From the IMG/VR virus record IMGVR_UViG_3300011116_000220, positions 1 through 23,939 of that record: a stretch of DNA of 23,939 bases. One strand, written 5' to 3'. Each line of letters opens with the position of its first letter. Position 1 is the stretch's first letter. The notes under the pieces are model-generated. The model was not told the DNA's origin, searched no databases, and saw only the letters and a list, made by a program, of their open reading frames with translations. Both the position numbers and the translations under genes were made by a program. This document shows positions 1 to 23,156 of this stretch, piece by piece. Origin of the DNA: a virus.

Positions 1-3000
1 GTAATTGATAAGATTCTAAAACGTCCACCTACACCTCAAGAAATAGAAGCCTTTAATAAACTACAAGATGAACTATTTGCTGAAGGTTTAGATAAGAAAG
101 GTAAACGATTTAAACCTAAACGTAGTAAACAATCTGCAGAAGACTTTAATAGTATGATCGATGCGTTTATCGATGACTTCACAGGTTTGAAACAAGAGAA
201 AAAATTATATAGTCGAGAAAGTTCATATGACAAATCACCAATAAAGACTTTTAAAAAAACTGCTGATGGCGTTGTTGATGATTTTGGAGCTAAAGTATCA
301 AATAATAATGTTACTTTATTGGAGCCTTTAGTTAATAAGCTTTCTGAATGGTATAAAAAAACAGCAGCTACATATAAAAATATAAAAGAAGCTCGTACCT
401 ATTCTGAAATAATGGACGGACCATTTGATGATATGGGGTTAAATACTCCTGGAAGATCTGCGCTTAGTAAAATACTAAATAATTCTTTACGTACTATTGA
501 TGAATTATTAAAAAATGCTACTAATGAAGAACAGAGAAACGCAAAATCTTATGTATTTAGAGAAGCATTTGAAAGAGCTAAAGAGTCAAAAGAACAGTTA
601 CCGTCTACCCTAGAAGGCACACCTGAAGGTAAGGCAATTGTTAATACAACAAAACCTGCTAAAACATTAGGTCAAGCCCTTACTATTATTAGACAACAAC
701 ATTTAAACAAACTTAATCCTGTTCAAAAGATATTACTAGATGTTATATCTAAACTACCTAATGTAACTAAAGGCACTTATAAAGTTATGGGTATGAAAAA
801 AGGTGAGTTTGGTTCTTATTCTCCTTTCCAAAATAAAACTACTATTAGTCCTGACGCTGGTGTAGATACTATATTCCACGAAGCAACACATAGTGCAACT
901 ACGTGGGAGTTAAGAAAACATGTAACCATGAAAAATGGTAGACCGGTAGGACGCACTCCATTAGGTGATAAATTAGTAGATATATTTGATGCAGCCGAAG
1001 TTGCAGCTATGCAACAGGAATTAAATTTTGGCGAAGCATTTAAAGATATGGATGAGTTTATTGCAAATGCTTATAACACTGTAGAGTTCCAAAAATTCTT
1101 AGCAGGCGAACGTAGTGTTGTTCCTAATGCTCCACCTGTTAATTCGTTATGGACAGACTTTCTTAACTTTGTTAAACAACTCTTAAATTTAGGTGATGTA
1201 TCTAATACCTTATTAAGCGATGTTGTAGGTTTAACGCCTGACTTATTTACAGGCACAAGAGAAGTAGGTTCAGCTACTATCCCTGATTTCACACCACAAG
1301 ATAAAATGTTTGCAAGGGATAATAATGAAAAGGCTGCTCAATACTTTAAAAATACAAATATTAAAACTGAAAAAGTTGAAGAGGCATCAGCATTTAACGA
1401 GTTTAAAGATGATCCTAAAAAATTTGTTAAAGATAAGTTTAAAGGATGGCAACATTTCCTTGACACTGCCGAAACTAACTTTTTCTCATCAGATGCAGGT
1501 TTAAGTAATGCTATACGTCGTGGATTAGATGAAACTGCAGAATGGGCAGAAACTAAAAAAGTATTGCATTCCATCAGCACATCACAAGCATTACATAGTG
1601 AAGCACCTGCTCATCAGTTCTTAGAAGAAGGTGATATTAAATACGATCCTAACTTGTATAAATATGTTGTATCTAAATCAAATACTAGCTGGAAAAAGAT
1701 GATGCTTAATATTAAGGCACTTGCTGATAAAGCAGGTATACCTTATGAAACTATGGAGAAGTATGCTCATGCAGCGTTAATTGGTAAACGTTTAAACAGC
1801 TTAAAAGAAAAAAATAATGAGCTAAAAGAAGACGTATTAGATATGATGTTGCAAGGCAAAACTAAAGAAGCTAAAGCTAAATGGGAAAAAGAATATAAAC
1901 ATATTCACATGACCACAAAAGAAATAAATAATGCGCTTAAACTATTTGATACATATCCTGGATTAAATAATATTGTTGATCAGTGGAATAGTATTAGAGC
2001 TAAAGTATTAAAGTTTGGCGTAGATTCTGGTCTTTATTCAGCAGAGCAAGCACAAGAATTATTAGATGTAATGGACTATGTTCCATTTTATCGTGTTGAG
2101 CAAATAGAACAAAAAGAAGGTCCTAGAGAATATACTCGTGGTTTATTAGATAGAGCTAAAACTGATCCTAGATTTAAAGGAAGCAATCAACCTGTTAATA
2201 ACGTGTTTGATAACATGGAACGCTGGATGACTTATGTTATTAGAAAAGGCATTAACAATAAAGCTGCACAAAATCTAGTTGCTGCTGCAGATCAATACTT
2301 AGAAGATGAAGTAACTAAATTACCTCCAGGTGCTAAGAGTCCTACAAGTAATACTATCGGTATATGGCAAAACGGTGGTATTGTTAAGTATCGATTTGAA
2401 GATCCATTATTTGTAAAAGCGTTTACAGGTATGGAAACTGTAGCTTTACCTGCATTCCCTAAACTTGCTAAGATAGCAAACGTATTACGTCAAAATATTG
2501 TATTGTATCCTTTGTTTTCTATTTCTCAAGTGTTTCAAGATGCATACAGCGCTATGATTACGTCTGGTGTTGAAAATCCTTTTATGATTCCTATTGAAGT
2601 AGCTAAAGAAATATATAGAACAGCTACAAAAACTAGTACAACTAGAGCACAACTAAAAAGTGTAGGTGCTGTAGGTATTCGAGATTACTCAGCTGAAATA
2701 AGTAAATTAGATGCTGAGATTGCAGCGGGGTTAAAAAAACCAGGATTGTTTGATCGTATGATTAAAAATCCATTACAAAAGTTTTCTATGGCTTCTGATA
2801 ATGTTATTCGCCAAGCTATTTATAATCAAACGTTAAAAGAAACAGGTGACAAATCTCTTGCTATTGAACGTGCATTTGAGGTTATTAACTTTAGAAGAAC
2901 GGGTTCAAATAAATTAGTATCTGTAGGTCGTCAAGTTATTCCATTCTTTGGTGCTTACTTACAATCTTTAAATGTAATGATGAAAGTTGCAGCGGGAAGA

Positions 3001-4026
3001 GGTATTGCACCTTCTCAACGTGCTGAAGCTTATCGTATACTACGTAACACTATGATGAAAACTATAATTTTAAGTTTAATCTATAGCGCATTAACTGCCG
3101 ATGATGATGATTATGAAAAACTTGATCCAACTATTAGAGATAGACGATTTATTATTCCTGGTATGGGTGGTTTAAGTATTCCTGTTCGTTCAGATTTAGC
3201 TACTTTGTTTACTAAAATTATTCCAGAACATGTATATCATGTATTTTATAAACAAGATGAAGATGGAACTAAAATGGCTAAAGCTATGAAAGATGGCATA
3301 GTAAATGCTATTGCTTCTCCTTCAGTTATGCCACAAGCTATTAAACCTTTGGTTGAAACATTTACTAATTATGATTATTTTACAGGTAGACCTATTGTAG
3401 GAACAGGTGTAGGTGGCAAAGAAGAAGAAATGCAATATACCGCTAGAACATCTGAGCTTGCTAAAGTGATAGGAGATTTTTCAGGTTATTCTCCTATGAA
3501 ATTAGATCATTTACTTGATGCTTATTTTGGATATTCGGCAGGCTTAATACGTTTAGCCACAAACGGATTAATGGCAGACATTAGAGGAGACGTGTTACCT
3601 TCTAAATCTACACAAGATTTTATTAATGCTCTTCCAGGCACATCAGCTTTTTACTCTAGAGAATTTGGCACTCGTGCTAAAAACGATTACTATGAACTAA
3701 GAGATATTGTAGATGAAGTTTATAATACTTATAAAGATAAACAAAAATTTAGGGGTCCTGAAGAAACTTTAGCATATGTAAATAAAGATAACAATAAAGA
3801 TCTCATACAAAGAAAACGATTATTAGATAGTATAGGTAAATATTTAGGTCAATTAAGAGCTGCTGAACGTAGAGTTTTAGAAGATAAAAAAATGTCTCCT
3901 GATGAAAAACAACAAAGAATTAAATATATTAGGCAAGAAGAACTAATTGCGCTTGATCATATAACTAAATATAAAGATCGAGACGTTAAATATATTCAAA
4001 AAGTAAGATTTGAAGCAGGGTTATAA
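1..4026 (+). CDS. Large polyvalent (internal virion/ejected) protein, HExxH site and LPD38-like C-terminus; 5' end outside window
   Basis: The frame is open from base 1, so the start lies to the left; 1341 residues are visible. Counting from base 1, an HEATH motif (HExxH, residues 293-297) is followed by an acidic stretch with E352 in DEFIANAY, the arrangement of a zinc metallopeptidase-like domain common in large polyvalent phage proteins. Residues about 830-1040 (LYPLFSISQVFQD, later NFRRTGSNK and PFFGAYLQSL) resemble the LPD38 region seen in giant podovirus proteins. Residues 1018-1033 are strongly hydrophobic and could cross a membrane; the rest is mostly helical and charged. It is the only + strand gene and ends the late region. 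By analogy with T7 internal virion proteins it may be ejected with the DNA; that role is inference. No transglycosylase motif was seen in the visible part. Confidence 0.8.
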   Translation, partial: VIDKILKRPPTPQEIEAFNKLQDELFAEGLDKKGKRFKPKRSKQSAEDFNSMIDAFIDDFTGLKQEKKLYSRESSYDKSPIKTFKKTADGVVDDFGAKVSNNNVTLLEPLVNKLSEWYKKTAATYKNIKEARTYSEIMDGPFDDMGLNTPGRSALSKILNNSLRTIDELLKNATNEEQRNAKSYVFREAFERAKESKEQLPSTLEGTPEGKAIVNTTKPAKTLGQALTIIRQQHLNKLNPVQKILLDVISKLPNVTKGTYKVMGMKKGEFGSYSPFQNKTTISPDAGVDTIFHEATHSATTWELRKHVTMKNGRPVGRTPLGDKLVDIFDAAEVAAMQQELNFGEAFKDMDEFIANAYNTVEFQKFLAGERSVVPNAPPVNSLWTDFLNFVKQLLNLGDVSNTLLSDVVGLTPDLFTGTREVGSATIPDFTPQDKMFARDNNEKAAQYFKNTNIKTEKVEEASAFNEFKDDPKKFVKDKFKGWQHFLDTAETNFFSSDAGLSNAIRRGLDETAEWAETKKVLHSISTSQALHSEAPAHQFLEEGDIKYDPNLYKYVVSKSNTSWKKMMLNIKALADKAGIPYETMEKYAHAALIGKRLNSLKEKNNELKEDVLDMMLQGKTKEAKAKWEKEYKHIHMTTKEINNALKLFDTYPGLNNIVDQWNSIRAKVLKFGVDSGLYSAEQAQELLDVMDYVPFYRVEQIEQKEGPREYTRGLLDRAKTDPRFKGSNQPVNNVFDNMERWMTYVIRKGINNKAAQNLVAAADQYLEDEVTKLPPGAKSPTSNTIGIWQNGGIVKYRFEDPLFVKAFTGMETVALPAFPKLAKIANVLRQNIVLYPLFSISQVFQDAYSAMITSGVENPFMIPIEVAKEIYRTATKTSTTRAQLKSVGAVGIRDYSAEISKLDAEIAAGLKKPGLFDRMIKNPLQKFSMASDNVIRQAIYNQTLKETGDKSLAIERAFEVINFRRTGSNKLVSVGRQVIPFFGAYLQSLNVMMKVAAGRGIAPSQRAEAYRILRNTMMKTIILSLIYSALTADDDDYEKLDPTIRDRRFIIPGMGGLSIPVRSDLATLFTKIIPEHVYHVFYKQDEDGTKMAKAMKDGIVNAIASPSVMPQAIKPLVETFTNYDYFTGRPIVGTGVGGKEEEMQYTARTSELAKVIGDFSGYSPMKLDHLLDAYFGYSAGLIRLATNGLMADIRGDVLPSKSTQDFINALPGTSAFYSREFGTRAKNDYYELRDIVDEVYNTYKDKQKFRGPEETLAYVNKDNNKDLIQRKRLLDSIGKYLGQLRAAERRVLEDKKMSPDEKQQRIKYIRQEELIALDHITKYKDRDVKYIQKVRFEAGL

Positions 4027-15507: not shown

Positions 15508-15869
15508 TACTTAGAATTCACAGTCTGTTTCTCGATAGTTTTTACCCATCTGTTAACATACCATTGTGTCTTTTTGGCATCTTGAAGTTCATCGTCTTTA
15601 TGTCCTGCTCTAGTTAAATACTTTAACGCAGTTAGTTTAAGATGTCCTTTAAACTCCTCAGGTGTAGACTTAGCTTCCATAATATCTATAGTCTCCATAC
15701 CTCCTTGAGTATAGTGTGGTGGGTGGTTGACCATGTCTTGTTCTTTTTCCATAGACAGCATCATTCTATATTTTGGTCTTTTTTTCTCTGTCATATTTTC
15801 TCCTGCTCCTGTTAATTTAACTGCACTTGAACCTGTGTAATTATTTAAAATAGTTTTCATTCTTGTCAT
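15507..15869 (-). CDS. DUF3310 protein, related to part of T7 gp1.7 (120 aa)
   Basis: Residues about 46-115 match DUF3310: VNHPPHYTQGGMETIDIME, GHLKLTALKYLTRAGHKDD and DAKKTQWYVNRWV. The family includes T7 gp1.7, described as a nucleotide kinase, so a role in nucleotide metabolism is possible but not shown. ATG 15869 overlaps the nuclease stop as ATGA with GGAG eight bases upstream. A second in-frame ATG at 15794 has a stronger AGGAG six bases upstream and would give a 95-aa form that keeps the whole DUF3310 domain; either or both may be used. The extra N-terminal 25 residues are polar and show no motif. Confidence 0.85.
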   Translation of the reverse strand: MTRMKTILNNYTGSSAVKLTGAGENMTEKKRPKYRMMLSMEKEQDMVNHPPHYTQGGMETIDIMEAKSTPEEFKGHLKLTALKYLTRAGHKDDELQDAKKTQWYVNRWVKTIEKQTVNSK

Positions 15870-16162
15870 GTAAGTGTCTCCAATCTTTGTTCTAAAGCTT
15901 CTAAATCGTCTTCATTTACTACTAATGCTATCCCATTATTATCTCGTATAGCTTCAAGGTTTCGTAATTGTATTTCTGTAGGGCGGTTCTTGCCTGCTTT
16001 ACATTCTATACCTACAAATCTACCTCTTACACACGCAACAATATCAGGCACACCTAAACTTTGATATGGACCTGCAACGGGAAAAAAGTAGTAAAAATGC
16101 CTAGCTTTCAACATCTTTACTACTTGTTGTTTTACCCATTTTTCTTTTACAGGTTGTTTCAC
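15866..16162 (-). CDS. VRR-NUC domain nuclease (98 aa, GTG start)
   Basis: A single-domain VRR-NUC nuclease of the PD-(D/E)XK superfamily. The active site is clear: GVPDIVA (D40), then GRFVGIECKAGK (E53, K55), then a conserved T.IQ (Q65). Stand-alone phage VRR-NUC proteins are thought to cut branched DNA, a job close to that of Holliday junction resolvases such as T7 gp3. It begins at GTG 16162, overlapping the upstream stop as GTGA with GGAG eight bases upstream, and its own stop overlaps the DUF3310 start. At 98 residues it is the usual length for the free-standing form. Confidence 0.92.
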   Translation of the reverse strand: MKQPVKEKWVKQQVVKMLKARHFYYFFPVAGPYQSLGVPDIVACVRGRFVGIECKAGKNRPTEIQLRNLEAIRDNNGIALVVNEDDLEALEQRLETLT

Positions 16163-16467
16163 TTTGGTATCTCCATCATAAGTTGCATGGCTCTAGCTTT
16201 TTTATGATGATACTCCATACCTTTCTGAGTTATTACCCTCATATCAAGTTTTTGCATCATGGCTGTATTTATTTTACCTAAAGCCTCACGATATTCTAAA
16301 TAAACTTCATCAGTATCGTTTTCAGCAATTACATAAAATTGACCATCTCTTATGCCTACATTTTTAACATACTTACCTATGTCAACAAGTTTAAGTATAG
16401 CTATTTTTTCTTTGTCTTCTTTAGATAAAATTGATGAGTTTTCATCTAATGCATGATATATTTTCAT
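16159..16467 (-). CDS. Hypothetical phage protein (102 aa)
   Basis: I do not recognise this gene. It encodes 102 residues with charged helices at both ends (SKEDKEKIAILKL; HHKKARAMQLMMEI) and a beta-like middle (VGIRDGQFYVIAENDTDEVYLEY). No cysteine pairs, P-loop, nuclease motif or membrane segment are visible. It is linked by four-base overlaps to the DUF3150-like gene upstream and to the VRR-NUC gene downstream, so it lies at the junction between the MoxR-vWA block and the nuclease/polymerase block. Methionine-rich stretches near the end may be flexible. Confidence 0.65.
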   Translation of the reverse strand: MKIYHALDENSSILSKEDKEKIAILKLVDIGKYVKNVGIRDGQFYVIAENDTDEVYLEYREALGKINTAMMQKLDMRVITQKGMEYHHKKARAMQLMMEIPK

Positions 16468-17306
16468 ATGGTTTCCATAATTTGATTAACTTTGTTTAAT
16501 ATTTCTTGACGAGCACCTGGACTTACACGCAACTCATCAGCAGTTACACCAACCAACGATTGCTCAAGTGAACGTCTAGCACTTTCTAATTTAGGGTCGT
16601 TTGTTACATTAAGCCTTGTTAAGAGATTTGTCAACTCTAACGCATTATCGACTAGACTATCTCTAAATATTTTCTTTTCCTCACCACTTAATCTATCTAT
16701 CATATGTTCTAGTGTGGTGTGTAGTCTTGACCATGCGTCACTCATGGCGGCTTCAACTCTACCCTCGTATGCCTTCTGATATTCTTGTTGCATCTCATTA
16801 CGAATATCATCTGCGATGTCAACACGGAAGTCATTTGTTTCAGGCACAGGCATAATAGTATATCTTAAGTTAAACTTATTTGCAATCTTATCTGCATCGG
16901 GGTATTCTCCTCTGTCAAATAGTTTACCTAGTTTAAATGCCATACCTTGTATGATGTTTGGATACTGTTGTATAAATGTATTTATACGAGATTTAAATTC
17001 AGCTTCATAGATGCCTAGTTGTTGCTTGTAATCAAAGAAGTTAGTCATAGGTAATAACCTTGTGCCTGTATCTGACCAAGGCAGAGTTTGTCTACCATGC
17101 CAATCACGAATTTCATTTGCTAACTTTGTGATAGCATCTAGTTGGTCTGAACCTGCAAGGATATGTTTGTTATAGTTACCTGCCTTGATGGTTGTGTTTT
17201 TGTTTATATCAATTTCTTTAGACACATTCTTATCTAGTTTCCTAGCTGTCCATACTGATATGTTTAAGTCAATTAAGACTGCACTGCTTGCTATACTGAT
17301 ACTCAT
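16464..17306 (-). CDS. DUF3150-like protein associated with the MoxR-vWA block (280 aa)
   Basis: The N-terminus (LIDLNISVWTARKLDK) and the region with GNYNKHILAG, WHGRQTLPWSDTGTRLLP and FFDYKQQLGIYE resemble a phage family that I associate with DUF3150. The middle and C-terminal parts are long helices. Nothing catalytic is visible. DUF3150-type proteins tend to lie near MoxR ATPases and vWA proteins, as here, and may be an adaptor or a target of that pair; this is inference from context. ATG 17306 has GAGGAGG eight bases upstream and overlaps the previous stop by ATGA. The family name is given from memory and should be tested by a profile search. Confidence 0.72.
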   Translation of the reverse strand: MSISIASSAVLIDLNISVWTARKLDKNVSKEIDINKNTTIKAGNYNKHILAGSDQLDAITKLANEIRDWHGRQTLPWSDTGTRLLPMTNFFDYKQQLGIYEAEFKSRINTFIQQYPNIIQGMAFKLGKLFDRGEYPDADKIANKFNLRYTIMPVPETNDFRVDIADDIRNEMQQEYQKAYEGRVEAAMSDAWSRLHTTLEHMIDRLSGEEKKIFRDSLVDNALELTNLLTRLNVTNDPKLESARRSLEQSLVGVTADELRVSPGARQEILNKVNQIMETI

Positions 17307-17563
17307 TTTATTTCCTCCTCTATGTTAATAATTTTATGTAATGCAGGGTGATACAATAGATGTTTGTATGTTTCTTCAAAATCTAATCTTTTGTATTTCC
17401 ATTTTGGTTTTTTATCTTTGAACCAATCTGTATCTACTAACTGCATCAATACATGATGCAAAGCCCAATAGTCCATACGATACTCTTCATCGTTGTGGTC
17501 TCTCACAGATATAACTGTTCCCCATTTGCAAGTTAACAAGTTTACGCTTTTAGGTTTAGGCAT
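17303..17563 (-). CDS. Hypothetical phage protein (86 aa)
   Basis: I do not recognise it. I choose ATG 17563 because GAGG lies nine to twelve bases upstream and the start overlaps the previous stop by eight bases; in-frame ATGs further upstream would overlap the preceding gene by up to 53 bases. The 86 residues include LLTCKWGTVISVRDHNDEEYR (one beta hairpin-like unit), a tryptophan-rich middle (YWALHHVLMQLVDTDWF) and a basic KKPKWKYKR segment. It has no membrane helix and no metal-binding pattern. Its place between two probable MoxR-vWA partner proteins suggests it belongs to that module. Confidence 0.68.
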   Translation of the reverse strand: MPKPKSVNLLTCKWGTVISVRDHNDEEYRMDYWALHHVLMQLVDTDWFKDKKPKWKYKRLDFEETYKHLLYHPALHKIINIEEEIK

Positions 17564-18158
17564 AATATTCATCCTCATCACGGTCTGTTTGTTCATATGG
17601 CAACGCATATGAATATTCTTCCCGACCTAATACGATAGGGAACTCAGTCATATCGGGTAGTTTCTCTAGCAATCCGTTAACTTTGTGGTCTTTAGCTAGC
17701 TTAATTCTGCCCACAGCGTGAATTTTATTTCTTACTATATAATCAATATATTGCAAATCAGCATGACCTATGGTGGGTCGCTCTAATATAACTCTTTCTA
17801 GTCGTCGTATATTTAAGTCCCATGTATCTCGGTAGTGACCACCGCCTTCGGGAGGAGATAGTTTTGTAATAGCTAATGCCCCTTCTATTTCATTAAAGAT
17901 GGGGTGGTCAGTAGGTATACCTTTCCATGCAAGATAACTATTACTTTCATTACCTACAATAAAATGTGGTATATCATATTCACGCAATATACTTCTAGAT
18001 ATGTATGAAGTAGTAGCATCACCACTTGTGGCATAACCATTCTCTACTTGTTTTACTACTCGTTTTAATTGATTTTTAGTAAGGTTTCCTATATCAATAT
18101 TTACTTCTATGTCTTTTGCAATTCTTAATAAATTATAATGTATTTGAATTTCTTGCAT
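17556..18158 (-). CDS. Paralogue 1 of a tandem pair near the vWA gene (200 aa)
   Basis: Residues about 18-100 align with the protein encoded just upstream (18169-18696): both have an IDxxxxxxxQ(L/I)K start, then G(D)(A/S)TS, PHF and WKxIP blocks, and an AxxKL end. Here these read GDATTS, IPHFIVGN and LAWKGIP. The C-terminal half contains a loop with PPEGGGHYRDTWD and a charged tail ending DRDEDEYYA. No known domain is recognised. ATG 18158 has AAGGAGAA upstream. As a duplicated gene directly downstream of the HExxH/vWA gene, it may be a substrate or partner of that complex; the function is unknown. Confidence 0.78.
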   Translation of the reverse strand: MQEIQIHYNLLRIAKDIEVNIDIGNLTKNQLKRVVKQVENGYATSGDATTSYISRSILREYDIPHFIVGNESNSYLAWKGIPTDHPIFNEIEGALAITKLSPPEGGGHYRDTWDLNIRRLERVILERPTIGHADLQYIDYIVRNKIHAVGRIKLAKDHKVNGLLEKLPDMTEFPIVLGREEYSYALPYEQTDRDEDEYYA

Positions 18159-18168
18159 GTTATTCTCC

Positions 18169-18696
18169 TTAATAACGATTAGCTACTTCATAAAAATCAA
18201 CAGGCACTACACCGAGTGTTCTGTTTTGTAATTTATCAATGAGTGTTTTTACTTCATCAGGTAATTCAGTTTGTATAATCATGCTTTGTTTTAATTGCTG
18301 AGACATATGTTCATCATAAGAACCCATTCTCATATCACCTGAAGGGTTTTGTGCATCTGCATTTATAAGGTCTTCTGCTATGCGTTTTGAATCATAATTA
18401 TCAGCTGTAAGTTTAGCGACTGATGCTACCCCTTTTAACGTTTCAAAGAAGGTATGACCGAATGGGATATTTTTCCAATCCGACCACCATCGTCCATATA
18501 AAAAATGTGGCATAGAATATTTTTTGAATACCCATCTAACAATAGTAGATGTAGCAGAGTCACCTTTAGATACATGTCCTCTACGAATATATTTAATCAT
18601 GTTTTTAATCTGTCCATCGCTAAATTTATTAAAGTCTATTTCAACCGTAATTGATTTAGCATAGCTAGATATTTCTTGTCTTAAGTATGTTGCCAT
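18169..18696 (-). CDS. Paralogue 2 of a tandem pair near the vWA gene (175 aa)
   Basis: The start is ATG 18696, eight bases after AAGGAGAGAG; in-frame codons further upstream would run through a terminator-like hairpin and into the vWA gene. Residues about 15-85 (VEIDFNKFSDGQIK, GDSATSTIVRW, MPHFLYGRWW, WKNIPFGH, ASVAKL) repeat the plan of the neighbouring 200-aa protein, and both end with a similar L(I/L)(D/E)KL...T element. The two genes are therefore an old tandem duplication with low identity. It has no recognised domain. A copy of the GTATCA/TGATAC hairpin stands right before it, so its expression relative to the vWA gene is probably tuned. Confidence 0.78.
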   Translation of the reverse strand: MATYLRQEISSYAKSITVEIDFNKFSDGQIKNMIKYIRRGHVSKGDSATSTIVRWVFKKYSMPHFLYGRWWSDWKNIPFGHTFFETLKGVASVAKLTADNYDSKRIAEDLINADAQNPSGDMRMGSYDEHMSQQLKQSMIIQTELPDEVKTLIDKLQNRTLGVVPVDFYEVANRY

Positions 18697-18709
18697 TTTC
18701 TCTCTCCTT

Positions 18710-18746
18710 AAAAAGAGACAAAGTATCATTTTTGATACAATGTCTC
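18710..18746 (-). terminator. Repeat hairpin A with U-run, between the vWA gene and paralogue 2
   Basis: On the - strand GAGACA, TT, GTATCA, loop AAAA, TGATAC, TT, TGTCTC is followed by TTTTT. The arms pair over 6+6 bp with a two-base internal mismatch. It begins two bases after the vWA stop codon and ends next to the AAGGAG of the downstream gene. The form is that of a weak intrinsic terminator or attenuator; GTATCA-N4-TGATAC could equally be a DNA operator. Confidence 0.65.
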
Positions 18747-18748
18747 GG

Positions 18749-19900
18749 TTAGTCTTCAATGTGAATAGTCTTGCCATGTGGTGATGTGATGTGTTTGGTT
18801 GTAATTGCCCACAATGTAGGATAATCCCAATTACCACCAAAGTCGTCTTCCACATAGCCGTCTGTTAATATAATGATAGCTTCAGGTTCGATGCGTTTAT
18901 CTTTGATATACTGATTAACACACCCAACATGAGTGCCACCCCCACCTGCAGGTTTAGTTGACTGAACCAAAGCTTTGTAATCACCTTGATTGTATGTCTC
19001 ATGTCCTGCAACATGAGTATCCCAATACAATAACTCTATACTTGATGGGGATACATCATCACATATAGCTACAACTTCTGTTAAGAACTCATTAAGTTCC
19101 TTGTCACCAATAGAACCCGATGTGTCAATACCAATAACTACTTGACCTATGGCTTCACCTATCATGCTAGGCATGTATATATCATGTCCAATGAAACGCT
19201 TGTGTGGTCGTTTCCATGATGTCCTATCTTTGTTCTTGCATGTGCTGTTTACAAACTCACGCAACTGTTCACGCCAATTTACTTTAGGTTCAAGTATCTC
19301 GTTAATACTTCTGTTCTTATTACCTTGCATCTTGCCACGAATGATTTCACCTTGACGCAATGCTTGGTCTATCTGCTTAGCCGTTTCTTTAACTTCCTCA
19401 TCAGATAAAGCTTCAGCACCTTCCCAGTCGTGTGTATCATGACCACATTGTTGCTTAATATACTGACTATCTTTCTTAAGCATTTCAAAGATTTGTTTAG
19501 TCGTCATACCTTTGTATGCTAAGTCAAACAATGCTGACTCGGGTCGTTTAGCAATCTCACTTTGTTCATCAGCTTCATGTATTGCATAGTTCACAACATA
19601 ATCAGCCGCCATGTTAGCAAGCATAGCGTTCTCTTTGAATAGCTTTCGCCACAAGTGCATATGTTGATAGACCTTATGCAACGCTTCATGCAAAACTACA
19701 TAGTTCAACTCCTTATCATCTAGTGTTTTGATGAAGTCTTTGTTATACATAACATCACGACCATTGGTGCAAGCCGTTGGTATGTCCTCTGTAAACATAA
19801 CCTTGCCCACCGATAACACACCTGCAAACATACAGAATTGTTTGCTACGCATTATCGCTATGTGGGACTTCGTGACTCTTTGTTCACTTGTTAGTGCCAT
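18749..19900 (-). CDS. vWA-domain protein with HExxH metallopeptidase-like N-terminus (DUF2201 type, 383 aa)
   Basis: Two modules are visible. The N-terminal one has VLHEALHKVYQH (H71, E72, H75) followed by MAADYVVN (D100), the pattern of the predicted metal-dependent peptidases of the DUF2201 type. The C-terminal one is a von Willebrand A domain with a complete MIDAS: IDTSGS (D259, S261, S263), a GGGGTH loop (T323) and LTDG (D347). Such proteins pair with MoxR AAA+ ATPases, encoded here two genes upstream, forming remodelling complexes that act on a target protein. ATG 19900 has GGAGGAG seven bases upstream and overlaps the previous gene by 17 bases. The target is unknown; cleavage of a host or virion protein is possible but unproven. 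Confidence 0.9.
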   Translation of the reverse strand: MALTSEQRVTKSHIAIMRSKQFCMFAGVLSVGKVMFTEDIPTACTNGRDVMYNKDFIKTLDDKELNYVVLHEALHKVYQHMHLWRKLFKENAMLANMAADYVVNYAIHEADEQSEIAKRPESALFDLAYKGMTTKQIFEMLKKDSQYIKQQCGHDTHDWEGAEALSDEEVKETAKQIDQALRQGEIIRGKMQGNKNRSINEILEPKVNWREQLREFVNSTCKNKDRTSWKRPHKRFIGHDIYMPSMIGEAIGQVVIGIDTSGSIGDKELNEFLTEVVAICDDVSPSSIELLYWDTHVAGHETYNQGDYKALVQSTKPAGGGGTHVGCVNQYIKDKRIEPEAIIILTDGYVEDDFGGNWDYPTLWAITTKHITSPHGKTIHIED

Positions 19901-20162
19901 TTTCAAACTCCTCCCAATTAAATACAGTATCTACATAAAACTCTAGTATCTCATCGTCTGTATCATTTTTAAAATATGCTGAAATATAATCTCTTATATA
20001 GTCAGGGTTTTCTCTAGCAAACTGATATTCATATTCAATGGCTTGTTCCCTAATTTCTTTAGGTGTCATTGATATTTTAATCATAGCTTTTGCCTCTTCT
20101 TTTTGCCTATCTAATTGCGATAGTCGTTCTAACTCTTTTCTTTCGTTGTTAGGGTTAGCCAT
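19884..20162 (-). CDS. Small acidic helical protein between the MoxR and vWA genes (92 aa)
   Basis: I do not recognise this gene. The N-terminal 50 residues are a charged helix with coiled-coil character (ERKELERLSQLDRQKEEAKAM), followed by a region rich in tyrosine and acidic residues (NPDYIRDYISAYFKND; EILEFYVDTVFNWEEFE). There are no catalytic motifs or membrane helices. AGGAGG precedes ATG 20162, a strong site, and the gene overlaps the vWA start by 17 bases. Lying between ATPase and vWA genes in one coupled unit, it may link or regulate the two proteins; that is inference from position only. Confidence 0.72.
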   Translation of the reverse strand: MANPNNERKELERLSQLDRQKEEAKAMIKISMTPKEIREQAIEYEYQFARENPDYIRDYISAYFKNDTDDEILEFYVDTVFNWEEFENGTNK

Positions 20163-20170
20163 GTATCCTC

Positions 20171-21217
20171 CTAGAAGTATTGGTTATTCTTAACTGCCCA
20201 ATCAACAAACGATTTGTTTTGAGCCGCAACTGCTTTGCGTGATGATGCCATGATGTTGACTGCAAACAATGCTTGTATCTCCATTGGTAAGCGTTGTAAG
20301 TAAGTCAACCATGCATCCATATGTTTATCTGTGATAGACATAAGTTCTCGCATTACCAATATCACACGAGCCGCAGGGTCGTTAGGAACATTAGCTTTCA
20401 ATGGTTCTTGATAGATACTTTCTTTGGTTGGTAGTCCATCTGCAAGACTAAAGTATGCAGACATATCACGAGCCGCTGACTCGCCTAGTGTGCCACTCAA
20501 CGCAACCATCGTGGTATCCTCACCAAGTGTATTTCTATTCTTAACAATGAATGACGCTTTCTCCAATGAACGAGGTGATACGAATGCCTCTTGTTGTTTG
20601 CGAGGATTGTATATATACATGTTTTCTTTCTGTGCTTCATCTGTATAACATGCTAGTGCATGGGGAAATTGTTTAACCCAAGCAACAACTTCGGGTGCTA
20701 TGTTGTTATCAATAGCCCAGCTAATCCATTCATCATCATTTGGATTACGAACAATGACTGCCGTTAGTCTGTTCTTGGCATGAGCCTTCATGGTATCACC
20801 TACACCATCTGTTGTTAGGTTACCTGTTGAATACACAATTGAGTCGGGGTGAAACTTAACTGCACCTAGTCTGCGTTCTAGCATGACAGGTAGTAACATG
20901 TTCTTGACAGGCTCACTCGCTTTAGTAATCTCGTCAAGCATGATGATGACAGGCTTGTTATCATGTATTGCAAAGCGTTCATTCGGATAGAATGTTGTAG
21001 TCTTTGACTCATGGTTCATGGCAGGCATAGCCAAGTCGCCCAAGTCTAAGTCTGCACAATCTATATACACAGGTGTGTGGTCGGGAAATCGTTTAGCTAA
21101 CGACTTCAATATAGATGACTTGCCGATGCCGGGCTGACCTTTAAGGTGAACCGTAACATCTTTACCTACTGTTGCAATCAACTCCTCTGCTTGTTTCAAA
21201 CTAATTTCTTGTTGCAT
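20171..21217 (-). CDS. MoxR-type AAA+ ATPase (348 aa)
   Basis: A single AAA+ module: Walker A GQPGIGKSS (27-35), Walker B IIMLDEI (D95, E96), sensor 1 STGN (N133), a candidate arginine finger in HAKNRL (R149) and sensor 2 SPRSL (R216), then a helical lid. The sequence resembles MoxR/CobS-like ATPases, which form rings and work with vWA proteins to remodel or activate targets. Phage copies are often labelled CobS, but no cobaltochelatase large subunit or other cobalamin gene is present, so that name is not used. ATG 21217 has AAGGAGAA upstream and follows a copy of the GTATCA/TGATAC hairpin. It most probably acts with the HExxH/vWA protein encoded at 18749-19900. Confidence 0.92.
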   Translation of the reverse strand: MQQEISLKQAEELIATVGKDVTVHLKGQPGIGKSSILKSLAKRFPDHTPVYIDCADLDLGDLAMPAMNHESKTTTFYPNERFAIHDNKPVIIMLDEITKASEPVKNMLLPVMLERRLGAVKFHPDSIVYSTGNLTTDGVGDTMKAHAKNRLTAVIVRNPNDDEWISWAIDNNIAPEVVAWVKQFPHALACYTDEAQKENMYIYNPRKQQEAFVSPRSLEKASFIVKNRNTLGEDTTMVALSGTLGESAARDMSAYFSLADGLPTKESIYQEPLKANVPNDPAARVILVMRELMSITDKHMDAWLTYLQRLPMEIQALFAVNIMASSRKAVAAQNKSFVDWAVKNNQYF

Positions 21218-21237
21218 TTTGCTTTCTCCTTAATGTT

Positions 21238-21270
21238 AAAAGACATCGTATCAAAATTGTTACTTTGTCT
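21238..21270 (-). terminator. Repeat hairpin B with U-run, upstream of the MoxR gene
   Basis: On the - strand AGACA, AA, GTAACA, loop, TGATAC, GA, TGTCT is followed by TTTT. It is the most diverged of the three copies (one stem mismatch, GTAACA for GTATCA). It starts within five bases of the upstream stop and ends before the AAGGAG of the MoxR gene. Probably an attenuator, partial terminator or operator. Confidence 0.6.
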
Positions 21271-21274
21271 CGGG

Positions 21275-22120
21275 TTAATTTACTTCTACTAAAACTTGTG
21301 GGTTCTCTATCTTAATATGCTTATCTAAAAATCTTTTGAATATACCTATGTTGCATGCATATTTATAGTTACTGCTACTTCCGTTATATCCTTGCCATAC
21401 ACTATGTTGACATTGTCTTAACACACTATAATATGCTAAATGTGTTTTATCTTCATCAGCACAAAGTCGTAACAGGTTTTTTGAATATTCATGCAAATTA
21501 TATTCTTCTATTTGCTTATTTAACTCTGCATCGTTTTCTACTCCTTCGTTATTAGTTAATTTCAACATAGTGTCTGCATACTTCAATAACTTTTTGTATG
21601 GCAAGCGTAACTCACGCATCTGACTTGCATCAAACCTATACTTCACAGGCGTTTCAAATTGTTCTATGTTTAGTGGCGTGTTTGTATAGTCAAACTTATA
21701 CCAATCAGTAGCGTTCATACAATGACCACCATTGACATGACATTCAATTTGATGGTTTTTAACTAACGGACTTCTAGTAAAGGGTGAAGGCACATAACGC
21801 TTATGGTCAAACTCACTTATATGCACACCACCAATCCAATTTACAAAATACTGCGTGCTTGTTGATGGATAATTACCTAGCGTTATCTCTTTGTGTGTTG
21901 GGTAGAACCTTACCAAGTCTGTGTCATAATATCCTGCCGTATACACTTCTATACCATCAAGCATATCTTTCCGTAGCCACTTTTCTTTTTCATACCTATC
22001 ACCAATTCTACGAACTGATTGATTGCCACCACGAACTGCTGTTCTACTTTCAAACTCTCCCTTTGCTTCAGCATAATTCTCTATGCGAGGCATGTTATAA
22101 ACATTGATATGAAAGCCCAT
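21275..22120 (-). CDS. Hypothetical protein upstream of the MoxR gene (281 aa)
   Basis: I do not recognise this protein. Notable parts are an N-terminal RGGNQSVRRIGDRYEKEKW, a beta-rich middle with VRFYPTHKEITLGNYPSTSTQYFVNWIGG, two histidine/cysteine patches (HQIECHVNGGHC; RQCQHSVWQGYNG) and a helical segment (LPYKKLLKYADTMLKL). TLGNYPSTST-type wording suggests a conserved phage family, and the repeated His and Cys might bind a metal or reflect an enzyme, but no known motif fits. ATG 22120 has AAAGGAGGGAG upstream and follows the DUF6915-like stop by one base. It ends at the hairpin before the MoxR gene, so it is co-transcribed with that module. Confidence 0.72.
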   Translation of the reverse strand: MGFHINVYNMPRIENYAEAKGEFESRTAVRGGNQSVRRIGDRYEKEKWLRKDMLDGIEVYTAGYYDTDLVRFYPTHKEITLGNYPSTSTQYFVNWIGGVHISEFDHKRYVPSPFTRSPLVKNHQIECHVNGGHCMNATDWYKFDYTNTPLNIEQFETPVKYRFDASQMRELRLPYKKLLKYADTMLKLTNNEGVENDAELNKQIEEYNLHEYSKNLLRLCADEDKTHLAYYSVLRQCQHSVWQGYNGSSSNYKYACNIGIFKRFLDKHIKIENPQVLVEVN

Positions 22121-22121
22121 G

Positions 22122-22463
22122 TTATTCTCCCTCCTTTAAGTTATAACCTCTGTTCATCCAACTAACTAACTTCATGTTAATAAGCCAATCTTGTAGGCTA
22201 GGTATCCACCCACCACAATCCTCTTTAACATGTTGTTCACCAATAAGTCTTGTAGGAACTTCTTTGCCATCACTATTCACAATGAATAACCCAAAGTGTC
22301 TTTCACATTCAAAGATACCTTGTGCATGATGTCTGATTGCTCTGTGTCTTGCGTCTGCAAAACATTCTTTGGTTGCATCAAACCAATCATGGATAGGTTG
22401 GTAGTCAGCTTCAACACCTCCCCACTTCTTTACAGATGTTTTAGAATGATAATGAGTATTCAT
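22122..22463 (-). CDS. DUF6915-like phage protein (113 aa)
   Basis: A highly patterned, histidine-rich protein: SVKKWGGVEADYQPIHDWFDATK, RHRAIRHHAQGIFECERHFG, TRLIGEQHVKEDCGGWIPSLQDWL and a closing WMNRG. I associate this combination (GG..DY.PIH.WFD, RHRA..HH, GEQHV.ED) with DUF6915, a family of unknown function; the number is from memory. The many invariant-looking His, Asp and Glu residues suggest a metal-dependent enzyme or a nucleic acid binder, which is inference. ATG 22463 overlaps the upstream stop by one base (TAATG) and has GAGGAGG in front. It is the third gene after the main promoter. Confidence 0.75.
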   Translation of the reverse strand: MNTHYHSKTSVKKWGGVEADYQPIHDWFDATKECFADARHRAIRHHAQGIFECERHFGLFIVNSDGKEVPTRLIGEQHVKEDCGGWIPSLQDWLINMKLVSWMNRGYNLKEGE

Positions 22464-22888
22464 TATTCTTCCTCCTCGTTCATATCAAAGTGATGGTCTT
22501 CTGTGGTCATGGTATTCACACCCACATTTAAAGTTATATTTGGTGGACTCTCTGTAAAATCAATTCGTAATTGACCTTGACCACCTTCGTTGTTATACCA
22601 ATCTAATCCTGTTTCATCTAATGCTCTATAACATAAATCCTCTAACACATCATTGAGTGATGTTCTCTCTGTTTTCGGTTCTTGATTACCATATGTTTGT
22701 TTAGTCCATGCTAGCATGTCATCAGGTATGCCTTGGTCTACATCATTCTTATCTCGGTAAAATATTTCTTCTACTTGACCACTATCACCACCACCTCTAA
22801 AATCTACAATTACATACTTCGCACCGAGCAGATTTAACTGCGTTAAGAGTGTTTCTTTTTCTTGTTTATTTGGAAAGATGTTTTGCAT
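22463..22888 (-). CDS. DUF6878-like phage protein (141 aa)
   Basis: The core reads YVIVDFRGGGDSGQVEEIFY, then SLNDVLEDLCYRALDETGLDWYNNEGGQG and QLRIDFTESPPNITLNV, with a very acidic end. The order 'GxGDSG..., leu-rich helix, GW.NN.G..G...D' resembles DUF6878, a phage and bacterial family of unknown function; the assignment is from memory. No enzyme motif is certain. ATG 22888 has GAGGAGAG upstream and lies inside the 55-aa gene, overlapping it by 23 bases. It is coupled to the DUF6915-like gene by TAATG. Confidence 0.72.
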   Translation of the reverse strand: MQNIFPNKQEKETLLTQLNLLGAKYVIVDFRGGGDSGQVEEIFYRDKNDVDQGIPDDMLAWTKQTYGNQEPKTERTSLNDVLEDLCYRALDETGLDWYNNEGGQGQLRIDFTESPPNITLNVGVNTMTTEDHHFDMNEEEE

Positions 22889-23033
22889 TTTTCTCTCCTC
22901 GTTGTTTCATGATTGAAACTACTAAATCGTAGTTTGTTTTGGAAGGCACAGGGGTTACATTTTTAATCCCGTAGTGCTTAAAGAATTCGCCGAGTGTTTC
23001 GGCTTGCTGTTTGTAATACTCGTTTTGATTCAT
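22866..23033 (-). CDS. Small leading protein of the long operon (55 aa)
   Basis: A 55-residue frame is the first gene after the strong promoter at 23128-23156. ATG 23033 has AAGGAGAGAG eight bases upstream. The product is helical at the start (MNQNEYYKQQAETLGEFFKHYG), continues NVTPVPSKTNYDLVVSIM and ends with a basic tail. Its stop lies 23 bases inside the DUF6878-like gene. No motif is recognised, but position, ribosome site and coupling make it a solid gene. As the most promoter-proximal product it is probably made early and in quantity. Confidence 0.75.
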   Translation of the reverse strand: MNQNEYYKQQAETLGEFFKHYGIKNVTPVPSKTNYDLVVSIMKQRGEKNAKHLSK

Positions 23034-23127: not shown

Positions 23128-23156
23128 ATTATACTACAACCACTTGACAATGTCAA
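23128..23156 (-). promoter_or_regulatory. Consensus sigma70 promoter of the main leftward operon
   Basis: On the - strand TTGACA (23156-23151), a spacer of exactly 17 bp and TATAAT (23133-23128) match the sigma70 consensus at all 12 positions. The transcript should start near 23121, giving a leader of about 90 bases with hairpin C before ATG 23033. The surroundings are non-coding and AT-rich. It shows that host RNA polymerase reads this region. Confidence 0.88.

Follow-up and report, generated by a model that had tools for sequence, protein, structure and literature searches.

The window analysed here, the whole 23,939-nt stretch of DNA from an uncultured bacterial virus, contains an early-gene operon that spans positions 16464–22888 and has all of its genes on the minus strand. 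The genes listed in an earlier sequence-only reading were all present at their claimed positions and on that strand, and the close coupling it described was reflected in overlaps of 1–8 bases at several junctions, as read from the coordinates. Its DUF6915-like and DUF6878-like calls were substantiated by profile matches (E-values below). The two tandem paralogues it had reported, here par1 and par2, were borne out as well, with the correction that the 228-aa frame of the first was over-extended: an AAGGAG precedes the ATG at 18696, giving a real length of 175 aa. From the promoter downstream, the features are:

23128–23156, minus strand: consensus sigma-70 promoter, TTGACA-N17-TATAAT (chance expectation in the window 0.05)
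22866–23033, minus strand: small 55-aa leader ORF with a Shine-Dalgarno sequence, the first gene past the promoter
22463–22888, minus strand: DUF6878 protein (E = 3.8e-23), optional accessory between the promoter and orph281
22122–22463, minus strand: DUF6915 protein (E = 1.2e-43), optional accessory
21275–22120, minus strand: orph281, obligate partner on the upstream side; residues 34–79 match phrog_17601
20171–21217, minus strand: MoxR-like AAA+ ATPase (phrog_1297; N4 gp24 family)
19884–20162, minus strand: small 92-aa coiled-coil protein in the MoxR/vWA interval, optional
18749–19900, ATG at 19900, minus strand: HExxH metallopeptidase and vWA protein (DUF2201_N and DUF2201; phrog_1314; N4 gp25 family)
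18169–18696, minus strand: par1, 175 aa, obligate and fast-evolving; predicted fold without a PDB match
17556–18158, minus strand: par2, optional second member of the par family
17303–17563, minus strand: 86-aa orphan, optional
16464–17306, minus strand: DUF3150-like protein, obligate; third member of the MoxR/DUF3150/vWA triad
15866–16467, minus strand: 102-aa protein and Hjc-like nuclease, co-directional, overlapping the end of the DUF3150 gene; the replication genes begin here

Integrity of the ATPase and the metallopeptidase-vWA protein

The ATPase matched AAA_5 (Pfam, E = 4.9e-7; 30.3 bits vs. a cut-off of 22) and phrog_1297 (PHROGs, E = 1.4e-57) and fell below the Pfam AAA_3 cut-off (16.6 vs. 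27 bits), for which reason it is labelled MoxR-like. Its partner matched DUF2201_N (E = 2.8e-26) and DUF2201 (E = 5.7e-17) in Pfam, and phrog_1314 in PHROGs (E = 3.8e-88). Catalytic residues were followed in alignments of the uncultured relatives with 11 distant homologues, from N4, Bacillus phage G, Vibrio, Acinetobacter and two cyanobacterial phages and from five plasmids. The Walker motifs of the ATPase had been called intact, and Walker A K33, Walker B D95, sensor-1 N133, the arginine finger R150 and sensor-2 R216 were indeed each conserved in 49/49 sequences. The union of an HExxH site with a complete vWA MIDAS in one protein was likewise confirmed: counting residues from the TTG at 19906, the peptidase residues H73, E74, H77, H82, N98, D102 and N106 were kept in 56/56 sequences, N4 gp25 included, as were the MIDAS residues D261, S263, S265, T325 and D349. 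Because these residues are conserved down to roughly 25% identity, the alignments argue that the ATPase and peptidase activities would both be in use.

Sequence searches returned no usable relative in the PDB for the MoxR, vWA, DUF3150 or par proteins, and NCBIfam searches gave nothing informative. No known anti-phage defence system was confidently recognised by PADLOC, whose matches were weak and partial, with E-values of 7e-4 or higher. The phrog_1314 metallopeptidase-vWA family is annotated as 'HNH endonuclease' in PHROGs and in many phage annotations, including that of N4 gp25; this label looks wrong, since the window vWA protein has no HNH match in Pfam.

Obligate and optional partners

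The presence of each gene was assessed in 51 uncultured relatives and in a second set of relatives found via DUF3150, and was counted only where the contig was long enough. A par gene occupied the slot between the vWA and DUF3150 genes in 68/68 loci, three of these being second copies of contigs already counted. orph281 was present in all 41 loci that extended over 1 kb past MoxR on its upstream side, immediately adjoining it in 40, and DUF3150 and MoxR were found with zero exceptions when in range. L118, L119 and L121 are second copies of the contigs of L039, L042 and L044, so that the raw counts slightly overstate the number of independent relatives. orph281, MoxR, the vWA protein, par and the DUF3150-like protein therefore constitute an obligate five-gene unit in the uncultured relatives. 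The 92-aa coiled coil (8/54 loci), par2, the 86-aa orphan (22/65) and DUF6878 and DUF6915 (each in 15 of the 20 loci with 4 kb upstream) are optional. The 'dedicated set' of partners proposed from the sequence alone, expected to co-occur with the MoxR-vWA pair in relatives, accordingly shrinks to orph281, par and DUF3150; the coiled coil, the 86-aa orphan, DUF6878 and DUF6915 did not co-occur consistently with the pair.

DUF6915 also occurs apart from the pair: 90 of its 109 phage records are Streptomyces phages, with Gordonia phages also represented, and Streptomyces is absent from the ten commonest names among the phage records of the vWA protein (the tenth has 16). Members of the orph281 family matched phrog_17601, to which no function is assigned, in 14/20 cases (best E = 4e-5).

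The DUF3150-like protein and the plasmid triad

The DUF3150-like protein lies under the Pfam PF11348 gathering score (21 vs. 24.9 bits); the call nevertheless holds, since DUF3150 proteins of plasmids and phages match it by tblastn and by HMM. An annotated DUF3150 protein that itself passes PF11348 matched it at E = 2e-20 over 98%. Plasmid records dominated the matches to the protein, 42 in number (best E = 1e-33) against just three from annotated phages; searches with the vWA protein recovered 61 plasmids, mostly of the same genera. A scan of the genome collection for DUF3150 gave no match, and the predicted model of the protein was poor (pLDDT 50).

In four inspected plasmids with DUF3150 and vWA genes (from Burkholderia, Cupriavidus, Rhodovastum and Simplicispira), MoxR was also present in the same neighbourhood, the three genes being contiguous in three of them; PRTRC genes lay nearby in two and T4SS genes in one. 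Two further plasmids inspected had only part of the MoxR/DUF3150/vWA set, and phage MinM2 had all three. The plasmid triad thus resembles the window in bringing all three core families together in one gene neighbourhood, and differs from it in that DUF3150 precedes vWA and no par or orph281 was found. Because plasmids make no virion, virion assembly is unlikely to be the basic function of the triad.

On a Manganitrophus plasmid (7989–8876), DUF3150 stands with a different AAA ATPase, DUF1257 and DUF2997, a context hinting that it is a general partner of AAA+ ATPases. The records of Synechococcus phage MinM2, Planktothrix phage Pag-Yong1 and phage Pra-JY27 each have exactly 65,014 bases and an equal score, and could represent a single genome submitted under several host names.

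Comparison with known systems

The pairing of the ATPase with the metallopeptidase-vWA protein is already known from phages, as gp24/gp25 of N4, and is recognisable in the window as phrog_1297 beside phrog_1314 with one small optional gene between them. The 14 core genes of N4-like phages include gene 24, listed as 'unknown', and gene 25, listed as 'vWFA domain' (PMC4193335). Of 50,697 phage records searched by tblastn, 711 had a match to the vWA protein and 433 one to the ATPase. The pair thus belongs to the core genes of N4-like phages and occurs in hundreds of sequenced phages, yet has no assigned job. As in the Schitoviridae, where gp24/gp25 is a core pair, the adjoining genes stand ahead of a DNA polymerase, and every catalytic residue is held in common with N4. 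Unlike in the window, homologues of DUF3150, par and orph281 were absent from the 30 kb of N4 that was searched. The window polymerase is also, unlike that of the Schitoviridae, not N4-type; it is nearest to those of Rhizobium TM3_14A-type and KPP25-type phages, with no N4-like phage among the matches listed.

Identical domain architecture is found in the pair of jumbo-phage group 2.2, which the relevant passages of PMC7824862 describe as a pair, with no mention there of a DUF3150/par/orph281 unit. RavA-ViaA, NorQ-NorD and CobS-CobT share with the window a MoxR ATPase and a vWA partner with a MIDAS. The window proteins had no Pfam family match to any of these three systems, and the window vWA protein, unlike that of RavA-ViaA, carries a DUF2201_N HExxH peptidase domain, which the vWA partners of the three are not known to have. 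The suggestion of an undescribed system therefore stands only for the newly delimited surrounding unit, the core pair being on record in N4-like phages (PMC4193335) and, from the passages of PMC7824862 concerned with it, in jumbo phages. What is new here is the obligate five-gene operon with an unclassified, fast-evolving partner, and a triad common to phage and plasmids.

Promoter, strand and timing

The promoter at 23156–23128 matches the sigma-70 consensus at 12/12 positions. Among 31 relatives, 24 also had a 12/12 promoter no more than 400 b from the first operon gene and 29 reached at least 11/12 there, vs. 0/124 control stretches reaching 11/12. The −35 hexamer of the window promoter sits within an inverted repeat, TTGACATTGTCAA, a possible operator. 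An inverted repeat of the form TTGACA-W-TGTCAA spans the −35 box of many promoters in this phage group (the window, L006, L012, L017 and L043), suggesting a common putative operator that would be bound by a repressor.

In loci without DUF6878 and DUF6915 the promoter stands immediately before orph281, so that these two genes appear to be insertions between the promoter and the unit. No perfect promoter was found downstream of orph281 in any locus, and the transcript therefore probably extends towards the genes for the Hjc-like nuclease, polymerase, SNF2 helicase and primase. The operon is co-directional with these genes (polA, SNF2, nuclease and primase), and in a 65.8-kb relative the opposite strand carries the genes for portal, terminase, head and ejection proteins. 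Early promoter and strand alone do not exclude assembly chaperones.

Divergence of par

Among near relatives, the mean pairwise identity of par was 0.50 (range 0.32–1.00), the lowest of the single-copy genes compared; the same comparison gave 0.92 for MoxR, 0.89 for DUF3150, 0.88 for polA and 0.86 for vWA. Ordinary drift combined with genome mosaicism, with no role in specificity, is a reasonable account of this divergence, if one somewhat short of an even chance, and concerns par only, being compatible with the other readings of the unit. Consistent with it, several other small genes also diverge (orph281 0.65, the 102-aa protein 0.65, DUF6878 0.68). par allele classes do not track vWA, the vWA proteins of the largest classes being as divergent as the population average, and par and vWA distances are uncorrelated (rho 0.00). 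Distances for vWA and polA are uncorrelated as well, indicating that recombination is general in this population and that the shuffling of par alone is not special. What is particular to par is that it is both obligate and highly divergent. This combination speaks against mere drift, as do its lowest mean identity and the purifying selection within its classes (dN/dS 0.15–0.29, somewhat above 0.11–0.13 for vWA). The pN/pS of the PD-(D/E)XK gene was left out, as it conflicts with 85–95% identity to the window.

The AlphaFold model of par was confident (pLDDT 92, pTM 0.84) and had no fold match in the PDB (best E = 0.46). In the viral structure library one match was notable, the uncharacterised A0A6J5LRJ3 (E = 0.008, probability 0.99). 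GatB_Yqey was matched by 5/45 par members (best E = 0.00055), the window members lying below the cut-off. No stretch of vWA, MoxR or DUF3150 co-varied with par at a rho above 0.18, a level too weak to point to an interface. par might be an exchangeable target-recognition subunit of new fold that aims the machine at a host protein that varies, for instance one involved in defence; we consider this unlikely. If true, phages would retarget one conserved AAA+/metalloprotease machine by the exchange of a single gene.

Proposed function

That the phage encodes its own ATP-driven remodelling or proteolytic machine, as first proposed from the window, is supported at the level of sequence by motifs that do not vary between this phage, N4, Bacillus phage G and the plasmids. 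Our preferred reading, to which we give a probability of roughly 0.4, is an early ATP-driven machine that remodels and probably cleaves its targets, with DUF3150 as a core cofactor and another protein as an exchangeable adaptor, directed at a host or replication target rather than at the virion. MoxR subunits would assemble as a hexamer with the vWA domain docked to it, and ATP would be used to pull or twist this domain, by analogy with the pulling of NorD by NorQ, from which such a MoxR-vWA mechanism is known (PMC13036017). The movement could then shift or unmask the N-terminal zinc protease domain. DUF3150, judging from its conservation, would be a third core subunit, and par, perhaps together with orph281, may act as the exchangeable adaptor that brings the substrate; its obligate yet variable nature would suit an adaptor, specificity or substrate protein. 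The likeliest substrate would be a protein either of the host or on replicating DNA. Among the targets previously put forward (a host factor, a defence protein or a virion component), the virion component is the least favoured, given the promoter, the strand and the plasmid triad. Together with the five-gene unit, the triad and the promoter steer the question of the pair's role towards a function that is early and does not concern the virion; DUF3150, par and orph281 are specific partners with which to test it.

A chaperone-protease of virion assembly, in which structural proteins would be the substrates that the MoxR/vWA pair remodels and cleaves, is less probable, though it is the strongest competing account of the whole unit. 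It has been proposed for the same architecture in jumbo phages, in the passages of PMC7824862 that treat the pair, and has a precedent in ATV p618/p892, linked to tail development where cited in PMC7824862 and PMC9964418. In cyanophage S-TIM66, moreover, the pair lies between Hsp20 and, one gene further, a virion protein. Against it, the pair in the window shares its strand with the replication genes, follows a sigma-70 consensus promoter and lies opposite the structural genes; the N4 pair is transcribed together with the middle genes (PMC4193335); and plasmids, though they make no virion, also carry the triad.

As a special case of the early-machine reading, the AAA+ ATPase and the metalloprotease may clear proteins from replicating DNA, in analogy with Cdc48 acting with Wss1/Spartan. 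The co-directional genes for the Hjc-like nuclease, DNA polymerase, SNF2 helicase and primase-helicase would fit such a role. The SprT-like match of the peptidase domain, however, is weak (E = 0.035) and under its cut-off, and no DNA-binding domain was found in the proteins, which makes this narrower version quite unlikely. It is improbable that the unit is a chaperone for metal insertion or enzyme maturation like NorQ/NorD or CobS/CobT, with its HExxH site carrying metal instead of acting as a protease. This reading has its model in the insertion of metal by NorQ/NorD (PMC13036017); against it, no client metalloenzyme gene lies beside the unit in the inspected phage and plasmid loci and the vWA protein has no CobT match in Pfam.

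Elsewhere in the window, a convergent gene (1–4026) encodes a giant protein with an LPD38 domain, whose open frames in longer relatives reach 1,860–2,676 aa. In several relatives this protein is 36–44% identical, the primase of the same relatives being 78–97% identical.
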